Origin: a virus
IMG/VR virus record: IMGVR_UViG_3300041403_000826
Span: 1 to 32,849 of that record
Length of the DNA stretch: 32,849 nucleotides
Direction: 5' to 3' (one strand)
Notes under the pieces: generated by a model
What the model was told of the DNA's origin: nothing
Database searches by the model: none
What the model saw: only the letters and a program-made list of their open reading frames with translations
Translations under genes and position numbers: made by a program
Part shown: positions 3,226-5,536 of the stretch, in pieces
Position numbering within the stretch: position 1 is the first letter of the stretch
How the letters are laid out: each line of letters begins with the position of its first letter

Positions 3226-3250
3226 AAGCACCCATTCGGGTGCTTTTTTT
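3226..3250 (+). terminator. Rho-independent terminator of the late operon
   Basis: An 8-bp perfect stem AAGCACCC / GGGTGCTT closes a 4-base loop and runs into seven T residues. It sits 40 bases after the stop of the last virion gene on the same strand. This is a textbook intrinsic terminator and marks the end of the late transcript. Confidence 0.9.
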
Positions 3251-3315
3251 ATTGAATCCCAGCTCTGACTGTGTCAGCTTTCTCCCGTAATAAGTATGCA
3301 ACGCCTATTACTTTC

Positions 3316-3360
3316 GAGCGTCTACCGTGGTTTTGCCGGACCCCAGACGCTCTTTTTTTT
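3316..3360 (+). terminator. Second intrinsic terminator upstream of attP
   Basis: A perfect 8-bp stem GAGCGTCT / AGACGCTC with a 21-base loop (which can form a further short CCG/CGG pairing) is followed by eight T residues. With the terminator at 3226 it makes a double stop between the late genes and the attP/integrase region, shielding the promoter at 3428 from readthrough. The large loop makes it less certain than the first one. Confidence 0.7.
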
Positions 3361-3427: not shown

Positions 3428-3456
3428 TTGACTGTTCTATAGTTTCATAATAATAT
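3428..3456 (+). promoter_or_regulatory. Sigma70-type promoter pointing through attP to the integrase
   Basis: TTGACT at 3428-3433 (-35), a 17-base spacer, then TAATAT at 3451-3456 (-10). Both boxes are close to consensus and the spacing is ideal. Transcription would start near 3463, at the left arm of the inverted repeat, cross the attP core and reach the integrase start at 3583. The region is AT-rich and free of genes. No other good promoter was found between here and the integrase. After integration the promoter and the gene would be on opposite ends of the prophage. Confidence 0.7.
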
Positions 3457-3461
3457 ATTTT

Positions 3462-3566
3462 CTCAGTGAGAGGCAGAAAACCTTTATGTGACTACGGATC
3501 AGGAGGTTTGGGGTTCGACTCCCTACGGGTGTACCATTACTAATACACTATCTGCTTCTCGCTGAG
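3462..3566. repeat. 16-bp inverted repeat flanking the attP core
   Basis: Left arm CTCAGTGAGAGGCAGA (3462-3477), right arm TCTGCTTCTCGCTGAG (3551-3566). As DNA the arms are complementary at 14 of 16 positions; both exceptions become G-U pairs in RNA, so the transcript can form a continuous 16-bp stem. The repeat is centred at about 3514, inside the T-loop of the tRNA-like core. It may be a pair of integrase arm-binding sites, an RNA structure in the integrase leader, or both. Confidence 0.7.
3490..3536 (+). other. attP: attP core: 3' part of a tRNA-Arg(ACG) gene
   Basis: Read as tRNA: anticodon loop CTACGGA (3492-3498) with anticodon ACG, 3' anticodon stem TCAGG, variable region AGGTT, T-arm TGGGG-TTCGACT-CCCTA (3509-3525, five pairs counting one G-T), acceptor 3' strand CGGGTGT, A73 and CCA ending at 3536. 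The matching 5' half (acceptor, D-arm, full anticodon stem) is absent, so this is not a working tRNA gene. Tyrosine integrases commonly use tRNA 3' halves as attachment sites, and an integrase begins 46 bases downstream. The exact left border of the identity segment cannot be fixed without the host sequence. Confidence 0.8.
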
Positions 3567-3582
3567 TAAGAAAGACTTAGTT

Positions 3583-4641
3583 ATGAAGCTTGAGTGTAAA
3601 ATAAACCTATTTAAGCGCGGAAAAACCTACTTTGCGAAATCCACCGTTTTGGGTACAGTCGCGACGGTCTCCACGGGGGTGCGCTGCAAAAAAACGGCAA
3701 AAAAGATTGCCGAGCAAAAATTGACCCTCCTCCTCCAGCAGTCAGACTCCGTCTGGCGCGTGCGCTACCTGGTCGATGAGTTCTCCAAAAACGCCTTCCA
3801 CATTCGACGGGCGACCATCAGCGGGGTGCGTGGGTTCGTCGCCATGTTTTTGAAAACACTGGACCTATCGTGGGATCACCCCGTAGAGGAGGTGTTCACC
3901 AAAGATAACGCCAACGCATTCTTCCGTTTACGGCTCAATGGGGCAGCTCATTCGGCGAGAACAACGGCATCGATAACGGCGAACACAATCCTTCGATCAG
4001 TCAAACAGCTGTTCAGCGACCGGATGGTGGACACGTATTCCAGGTCACTGCCCGATTGCGTAGACGGTTTCAAAGCAGTCAAGCCACTGCCAGTCAGGCA
4101 GAAACAATACACCGTCTCGGATAAAAAGGATAAAATGCTCAAGGTCATCCAACAGTGCGAAGCACTCAAAGAGTCGGATCCGGGCGCATACCTGGCTTAT
4201 TGGCTCATGCTGCACTGCGGTCTGCGGCGCGGAGAAGCCGCCGCTGCTCGCTGGTCATGGATCACTCCTCACGGTCTCATGGTTCAGGAGGAGGAGGATT
4301 TCAGCACCAAAAGTGGCAGGTCGCGCCTTATCCCGCTTTCCAAAGACCAGATTGCCCACCTTGAGACGTTTAAGGAGGAGCGAGTCCACATACTGCCCGG
4401 CCCCATGACGGCACGTCTGAGAGACCATTCTGACGTTGTCGCCAAAATCATTCGTGCAGCAGGTTTCACCGGATCCAAATCAGTCCACGAACTTCGCAAA
4501 TACTTTGGAGCAAACGTAGCGACCCAGCTGGGGTTGTTTGCTGCTCAAAAATATCTGGGGCATCACTCCCCGGAGATCACCTCACGATACTACGCTGACT
4601 TGATCGATCAAAAACCCGTGGAGATTAAAATCCTGGCTTGA
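3583..4641 (+). CDS. int: Tyrosine-family site-specific integrase
   Basis: Catalyses integration of the circular phage DNA into the host tRNA gene and, with help, excision. The 352 residues have the usual order: an N-terminal DNA-binding part (about 1-60), a core-binding helical domain (about 55-160) and a catalytic domain (about 175-345). The catalytic set is visible: R215 in HCGLRRGE, K243 in TKSGRSRLIPL, H302 and R305 in VHELRK, H327 in YLGHHSPE and the nucleophile Y336 in TSRYYADL. The length is normal and nothing is missing. It lies directly downstream of the tRNA-like attP core, in the same direction, as expected. The ATG at 3583 has only a weak ribosome-binding site. Its promoter appears to be the one at 3428, on the far side of the attP core. 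Confidence 0.96.
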   Translation: MKLECKINLFKRGKTYFAKSTVLGTVATVSTGVRCKKTAKKIAEQKLTLLLQQSDSVWRVRYLVDEFSKNAFHIRRATISGVRGFVAMFLKTLDLSWDHPVEEVFTKDNANAFFRLRLNGAAHSARTTASITANTILRSVKQLFSDRMVDTYSRSLPDCVDGFKAVKPLPVRQKQYTVSDKKDKMLKVIQQCEALKESDPGAYLAYWLMLHCGLRRGEAAAARWSWITPHGLMVQEEEDFSTKSGRSRLIPLSKDQIAHLETFKEERVHILPGPMTARLRDHSDVVAKIIRAAGFTGSKSVHELRKYFGANVATQLGLFAAQKYLGHHSPEITSRYYADLIDQKPVEIKILA

Positions 4642-4648
4642 CAGGATC

Positions 4649-4681
4649 AGGTGCCTGGCCCGATGGGTGGGTCAGGCACCT
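4649..4681 (+). other. Strong 14-bp hairpin just after int
   Basis: Bases 4649-4662 pair with 4668-4681 (core AGGTGCCTG / CAGGCACCT, extended by four pairs and two G-U pairs) around a 5-base loop. It starts 8 bases after the integrase stop and ends one base before the ATG at 4683. There is no T-run, so it is not a classic terminator. It would cover the ribosome-loading region of the next gene, so it may block or couple its translation, or protect the 3' end of the int message. Confidence 0.6.
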
Positions 4682-5181: not shown

Positions 5182-5403
5182 ATGAACAGCATGAAGGTTC
5201 ACCCGTCACTCATCGCTATTCTGCGCCGAATTGCTCGAGAAGAGCACTCAACTCCGCAGCATATTCTGAGTCGGGTGCTTGATCAATCTGACGCTTTGCT
5301 TCCGCCAGAATCAACAACTCCAGAACCTGGGTGCGGGATCTGCGAGATTTCTTTGCCAGGCTCGAAAGAGCCTCCTTCGCGTTGGAATCAATCCAGGCAT
5401 TGA
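5182..5403 (+). CDS. Possible ribbon-helix-helix protein, antisense to the 5216-5458 gene
   Basis: The N-terminal 32 residues (MKVHPSLIAILRRIAREE then HSTPQHILSRVL) look like a short beta strand followed by two helices, the RHH plan. The frame is open upstream to 5131, overlapping the previous gene, but I favour ATG 5182 or 5191 because a purine-rich stretch precedes them. From about residue 45 the composition becomes unlike a protein (proline, cysteine and tryptophan rich). Most of the frame lies opposite the better-looking minus-strand gene. Either it is a shadow, or only its first half is real. Confidence 0.35.
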   Translation: MNSMKVHPSLIAILRRIAREEHSTPQHILSRVLDQSDALLPPESTTPEPGCGICEISLPGSKEPPSRWNQSRH

Positions 5404-5458
5404 AATTGGCTTTGTTTTTTGCTCTGACAGGTAAACTCACGCTCACACAATACATCAT
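5216..5458 (-). CDS. Ribbon-helix-helix candidate repressor (80 aa)
   Basis: The only convincing minus-strand gene in the window. Residues about 16-55 (KANFNAWIDSNAKEALSSLA, then KKSRRSRTQVLELLILAEAK) fit a strand-helix-helix RHH fold with a basic turn, followed by an acidic helical tail. It is transcribed away from the operator and promoter at 5501-5536, the place where a temperate phage keeps its repressor. This makes it the best candidate for the lysogeny repressor, though no classical CI-type HTH is present. The start could be either of two adjacent ATGs (5458 or 5455) and neither has a clear ribosome-binding site. Identity as RHH is by pattern only. Confidence 0.6.
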   Translation of the reverse strand: MMYCVSVSLPVRAKNKANFNAWIDSNAKEALSSLAKKSRRSRTQVLELLILAEAKRQIDQAPDSEYAAELSALLEQFGAE

Positions 5459-5500: not shown

Positions 5501-5536
5501 TTGACCTAGGCGCACAATAGGCGCATATTGGGCGCA
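5501..5536 (+). promoter_or_regulatory. Early promoter overlapped by an 11-bp-phased operator
   Basis: TTGACC at 5501-5506 and CATATT at 5524-5529, 17 bases apart, form a plausible promoter for the gene at 5536. Three heptamers follow at exact 11-base steps: AGGCGCA (5508-5514), AGGCGCA (5519-5525) and GGGCGCA (5530-5536). They cover the spacer, the -10 box and the start point, so a bound protein would block transcription. An 11-bp step places each copy on the same face of the helix, as expected for a cooperatively binding RHH repressor. The predicted start is at or beside the ATG at 5536, so the mRNA may have no leader. Confidence 0.65.

Follow-up and report, generated by a model that had tools for sequence, protein, structure and literature searches.

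An attP core that probably separates the integrase promoter from its gene in a tailed phage

Introduction

The closest described systems are ICEs whose integrase promoter depends on the state of the element. In ICEKp1, int is transcribed from the tRNA-Asn promoter when the element is integrated and, when it is excised, from a far-end promoter which lies 5' of attP and was mapped by 5'-RACE (PMC13023037). The same source describes a 15-bp segment between the start site and attP that relieves the inhibition by stem-loops of the int leader, proposes pairing of this segment with the stem-loop SL3, and gives analogous results for ICEclc and ICEEc1 (PMC13023037). In KplE1, intS is repressed by IntS and TorI, and its promoter lies within attL (PMC2951348). 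A limited look through the literature, covering few subscription papers, yielded no phage in which a promoter parted from int by a core had been tested. In phage lambda, the target of sib is the 3' end of the int message, and sib does not serve as a promoter, and enzymes of the lambda Int type bind both core and arm sites.

Here we describe the window, that is, the whole stretch of 32,849 bases that makes up one IMG/VR virus record. Its plus strand carries, in this order, a promoter-like site, a core made of the 3' part of a tRNA-Arg and the integrase gene int (Table 1). The initial annotation, made from the letters of the stretch, proposed that such a promoter would serve int only in the circular form of the phage.

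Results

The phage and its integrase

The window was filed as a phage because terminase, portal and major head proteins are present; an Erf-like annealing protein and an exonuclease are encoded as well. The gene 3' of the core, annotated from the start as int in the same direction, indeed matches a PHROG integrase (1.1e-21) and PF00589 (5e-11). Its predicted fold (mean pLDDT 74.6, with the last 46 residues under 50) begins with a beta-beta-beta-alpha N-domain (residues 8-54), followed by helical and catalytic domains, and the top solved-structure match of the model was full-length lambda integrase (E 6.1e-9, TM 0.49). Judging by the model, Int is predicted to be a heterobivalent enzyme of the lambda type, with N-terminal arm-binding, core-binding and catalytic domains. 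Solved structures searched by sequence gave no match to the integrase, nor did a comparison with 50,697 phage and 72,556 plasmid records. A peptide-pattern search of genome_contigs for its relatives matched 12 stretches, none of which was confirmed, and the sole match of the DNA near int to phages was a 44-nt tRNA-Arg stretch in one record.

Right after int, at 4649-4681, lies a strong hairpin that lacks a T-run; it is kept in the related records L002 and L003, whereas the representatives of the other families showed no such hairpin behind int. It is possibly a message-processing site.

Table 1. Features around the attP core of the window
Feature	Position	Strand	Basis
Terminator-like hairpin (3226-3245) and T-run, 3' of the last late gene	3226..3251	+	sequence
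Second terminator-like hairpin, 8-bp arms GAGCGTCT/AGACGCTC at 3316-3323/3345-3352, 21-nt loop, then eight T	3316..3360	+	sequence
Proposed int promoter, TTGACT-17-TAATAT	3428..3456	+	consensus match, weight matrix, comparison across families
Arm 1 of inverted repeat, CTCAGTGAGAGGCAGA, beginning close to where transcription is predicted to start; putative Int arm-type site	3462..3477	+	repeat search
attP core, equal to tRNA-Arg(ACG) from the anticodon stem-loop to the 3' CCA	3490..3536	+	identity to host tRNA
Arm 2 of inverted repeat, TCTGCTTCTCGCTGAG	3551..3566	+	repeat search
Short arm 3, ACTTAG, a possible pairing partner of CTGAGT (3562-3567) beside the int start; weak in this phage, shuffle p 0.67	3575..3580	+	
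int, lambda-type tyrosine integrase, 352 aa	3583..4641	+	PHROG, PF00589, predicted fold

Relatives with the same layout

Scanning viral_contigs for the integrase and the core revealed the promoter-core-int order in 13 IMG/VR records (the window and 12 others), which fall into five integrase families. A tRNA-Arg core is found in family A (the window, L002, L004 and L003), family B (L018, L019 and L007), family D (L039, L040 and L041) and family E (L044/L050 and L052), and the core of family F (L048) is the 3' part of a tRNA-Lys, with the anticodon CTT read by eye. The integrases of different families are 46-69% identical. Since B and E, the closest pair, reach 69% and are also alike in their upstream DNA, the five families are not independent, and the common layout may have been inherited by all of them. 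L004 equals L002 over the DNA compared, the three D int genes are identical, and L052 equals L044 over 400 nt. A large late gene is about 1 kb longer inside in L002 and L004 (L002 884-1870 against about 455-465 of the window). Later scans gave no new family, and the 13 records are thus probably what viral_contigs contains under the patterns used. Ten rows were scored in the count of TTGAC, nine in the repeat search, and eight each in the RNA opening calculation and with the promoter matrix.

Several loci and the repeat fetches of the same contigs were left out of the counts. L005 was excluded as its integrase is 29% identical and another tRNA is used; at about 4450-4600 this distant integrase follows what appears by eye to be the 5' half, not the 3' part, of a tRNA-Leu. 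L045, L046 and L047 were excluded because they have no core within 330 nt upstream and their integrases, 53-54% identical to that of the window, lack the arm-binding N-terminal part. L009 and L011 were excluded for having a complete tRNA-Arg and an unrelated integrase: in these viral contigs the complete tRNA-Arg(ACG) contains an identical core, shares flanks over 170 nt on each side and has a different integrase nearby.

The promoter-like site 5' of the core

The proposed promoter matches 9 of the 12 consensus positions. By hexamer counting such sites are near chance, with 10 per 9 kb versus 6.3 +/- 2.4 in shuffles. Scored with a sigma-70 weight matrix, which derives from E. coli and may not suit Verrucomicrobial promoters, the site is the best of the 140 nt 5' of the core, and its score is reached by 0.4% of 234 windows of 140 nt. 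For the representatives of families A, B, D, E and F, the scores of the upstream promoters are reached in 0.4%, 4.0%, 3.1%, 6.9% and 4.6% of the 140-nt windows, respectively, and a poor -10 box is seen in E (TTACTT) and in F (TACTCT). From the start of the core to the ATG, the best site by the same matrix is at background (reached by 62, 60, 69, 100 and 94% of windows in the same order). On this score no active promoter is predicted between core and int, including 3537-3583, the interval in which the initial annotation had considered a competing promoter.

A single TTGAC occurs in the 120 nt 5' of the core, 49-62 nt away from it, in all ten rows scored, which represent the five families. The motif is shown by 12 of the 13 records, and L040 starts downstream of the -35 box. 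This comparison of families carries more weight as evidence for a predicted promoter than the hexamer or matrix scores, and the near-consensus promoter described initially is thereby upheld. So are the two terminator-like hairpins, each with a T-run, that stand between the late genes and the promoter-like site; terminators lie 5' of this site in families A, B, E and F, and none was seen in D.

Further along, L002 and L003 keep the frame of window positions 5216-5458 (minus strand), which encodes a small ribbon-helix-helix-like protein with a weak RHH_1 match below the cut-off. This frame is divergent from a promoter-like TTGACC-17-CATATT (window 5501-5536) carrying three GGCGCA words at an exact spacing of 11 bp (5509, 5520 and 5531). 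For the lytic switch, the protein is a candidate repressor and the words are a candidate operator.

The core, the host tRNA and a fossil attL

In four Verrucomicrobiota genomes, the 3' part of tRNA-Arg(ACG) matches the core exactly over all 47 nt. In genome_contigs the exact core was found in four stretches, L014 to L017, all from Verrucomicrobiota, with L015 titled Pedosphaera sp.; the four genomes belong to one family, which has 11 genomes in the collection. The virus probably infects Verrucomicrobia bacteria. ARAGORN detected no complete tRNA in the phage, and the idea of a full tRNA mimic in the leader was set aside on this result.

In three of the 11 genomes of the host family (L015, L016 and L017), the complete tRNA-Arg(ACG) is followed, 55-56 bp past the CCA, by the start of an int gene on the same strand. 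These int starts are open or decayed, cover residues 1 to about 78 and are about 60% identical to the integrase of the window. The remnants of L017 and L016 have an early TAA, and the one of L016/L032 is split in two pieces; L014 has the tRNA-Arg without int. Because the remnants end at about the same residue and lie in syntenic DNA, they probably descend from one old insertion. In the three related host genomes L030, L031 and L032, at about 100-340 nt past the tRNA, the first 78 or so int codons are followed by an ankyrin-like gene, so labelled by reading its sequence, and this remnant is by its appearance the scar of an old shared prophage.

We read the tRNA-Arg with the adjacent int start in the three genomes as a fossil attL, by which recombination in the core is shown indirectly. 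As int adjoins the restored tRNA in the fossil, the promoter side of attP must go to the opposite end. The integrated state would thus have int next to the tRNA and pointing the same way. Of the two junctions that the initial annotation proposed to look for in host genomes, attL is represented by these fossils, which place int beside the tRNA. Neither an attR or second core copy nor an intact prophage was found in the core-bearing Verrucomicrobiota genomes. No junction that would put the core elsewhere was found. An activation of host genes by the promoter from attR was considered and set aside, as no attR was seen. In the phages of family B and in the fossils, the CCA is directly followed by 6-8 T, a run that might halt the read-through from the tRNA.

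Wider searches returned few loci of this kind. One of 384 genomes matched class-wide and proved to be the known G004 remnant, and one of 387 matched phylum-wide, L049, with an unrelated integrase; in this other genome of the phylum a 3' fragment of tRNA-Arg (2896-2943) adjoins the unrelated integrase, which points away. With a cut-off of E <= 1e-12, the order-wide search matched 49 of 320 genomes, for the most part in the catalytic half. Among the 30 loci listed from it, a quick look for tRNAs showed the tRNA-core-int layout only in the known remnant L077; L055 and L056 were discarded after a closer reading.

An inverted repeat across attP

The core is flanked by an inverted repeat in all five families (p 0.0005-0.002 for the representatives, by shuffles), a feature that was absent from the earlier sequence-only reading. 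The combined p of 2e-11 assumes independent families, which these are not. Arm 1 starts 31-36 nt past the first base of the -35 box, arm 2 is located 9-28 nt 5' of the int ATG, and the gap between them, as set by an ungapped search, measures 64 nt for families D, E and F, 73 nt for A and 73-77 nt for B. The sequences of the arms vary by family; a TGYAAGC/AGAAAGC-like word recurs in ten arm regions (shuffle p 0.02), and for the arm 1 regions by themselves the shared word does not reach significance (p 0.16). Since Int resembles lambda Int, which binds core and arm sites, the repeat is most simply read as a pair of lambda-type arm sites, and this is most likely its nature. Int could also repress its own promoter, because arm 1 sits at the promoter start.

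Discussion

We consider it likely that attP splits the int promoter from int across the tRNA-Arg core and that integration moves this promoter away, with the inverted repeat being the likely arm sites and Int possibly repressing itself. In the circle, the promoter would transcribe arm 1, the core, arm 2 and then int. Recombination in the core would leave int beside the restored host tRNA and place the promoter at the other prophage end, directed into host DNA, so that the synthesis of int would end or drop to read-through from the tRNA promoter. Before integration cuts the promoter away, Int bound at arm 1 could already repress it. The promoter would thus make int only when the phage is circular. 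In all five families the putative promoter is placed 5' of attP and faces the core, a position that integration would turn into the opposite end. The parting of promoter and int by integration, as initially annotated, gains support from the fossil attL in three genomes and from the layout kept in five families.

One could argue that the promoter-like site arose by coincidence and that int is expressed only via read-through, since the hexamer count is near that of shuffles. However, the site is in the top 0.4% of windows, its counterparts lie at a narrow range of distances from the core in five families, and terminators stand upstream in four of them, though not in D; we regard a chance match as very improbable. 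Somewhat less improbable, yet still hardly to be expected, is that int has its own promoter of a non-sigma-70 type in the 46-bp leader or the tRNA core, and that the upstream promoter serves, for example, host DNA by attR. Verrucomicrobial promoters are little known, the matrix comes from E. coli, and with it the host tRNA promoter scores only 6.2-6.8. Against this, nothing between the core and the ATG scores above background in the five representatives, and TTGAC is kept upstream in all.

The repeat could also act in the RNA, which we find doubtful but well worth weighing, as it is compatible with the reading as DNA sites. Paired with arm 3 at the start codon, arm 2 would keep the leader closed, and paired with arm 1 it would leave it open; as arm 1 would be present only in circle transcripts, the leader would sense the integration state and open int translation only in the circle. 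The transcript of the window folds 3 sd better than shuffles, and the model gives the start region (-5 to +13) a greater opening in the circle transcript than in the processed lysogen transcript, namely 0.47 vs 0.31 in A, 0.76 vs 0.24 in D, 0.89 vs 0.36 in F and 0.72 vs 0.62 in E. The gain in A, D and F is lost when the leader is shuffled, the hairpins of arm 2 with arm 3 give a combined p of 0.001 for five representatives, and the 15-bp segment of ICEKp1, with its proposed SL3 pairing, offers a parallel (PMC13023037). On the other hand, L018 of family B has no gain (0.53 vs 0.55), and shuffled leaders of family E give nearly the same value at the start region (0.69), with a clear rise in E only just 5' of the ATG (0.74 vs 0.51 at -20 to -1). 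The window's own hairpin of arm 2 with arm 3 is no better than shuffles (p 0.67), and the gaps of 64 nt and of 73-77 nt are roughly one helical turn of DNA apart in length, a spacing that favours sites in DNA. Because any three repeats of alternating orientation would fold alike, the RNA switch stays a rival or an added layer to the arm sites. It is less likely still that one element reads integration twice, with the repeat serving as Int arm sites, Int operator and RNA switch and thereby tying both transcription and translation of int to the circle. If this were true, the 15-bp segment of ICEKp1 would be a separate case of the same design.

If the promoter is indeed split from int, these phages would make integrase only until integration, with no repressor needed for that step, and a switch proven in ICEs would extend to tailed phages from a phylum that has been little studied. 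ICEKp1 raised the question of how a short segment near attP relieves the inhibition by the int leader, and the inverted repeat across attP offers a specific, comparative lead on it. Additionally, the exact tRNA core allows a host to be assigned to contigs that would lack one.

A state-dependent int promoter has been proven for ICEKp1, and reports of one exist for ICEEc1 and ICEclc; we read the layout in the window as a phage variant of this kind. In this group of ICEs, as predicted for the phage, the integrated int is beside the tRNA and co-directional, and the promoter is at the other end 5' of attP (PMC13023037). Between the start site and the core, the ICEs also have a short segment that interacts with the leader of int; for the phages, the folding models show a clear gain in A, D and F, a partial one in E and none in L018 of family B. 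These ICEs, unlike the phage, conjugate and come from Proteobacteria, and their int is about 200 bp from the tRNA compared to 46 bp here. Their int expression is proven, whereas the state-dependence in the phage is inferred from sequence. A visible inverted repeat of the arms in five families of tailed-phage contigs is a further difference from the ICEKp1 group. For intB13 of ICEclc an outward promoter, Pcirc, is listed, which resembles the one proposed here; that element, however, uses tRNA-Gly, is an ICE and has no phage genes (PMC2892462). KplE1 intS and similar autoregulated integrases linked to a tRNA share with the window a tRNA before int in the same direction (the 'STI' shape) and Int arm sites that overlap an int promoter, which in the phage are proposed sites (PMC2951348). 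Contrastingly, their promoter in attL stays with int in the prophage, and the promoter of the window lies across the core (PMC2951348); an int promoter of the KplE1 type within attL was not seen in the window, where the stretch from core to int is at background. With lambda int and sib, the phage has in common a heterobivalent Int of the lambda type and an int expression that depends on DNA moved by integration; in lambda this works through the 3' end of the message, and in the phage it would work through the promoter.
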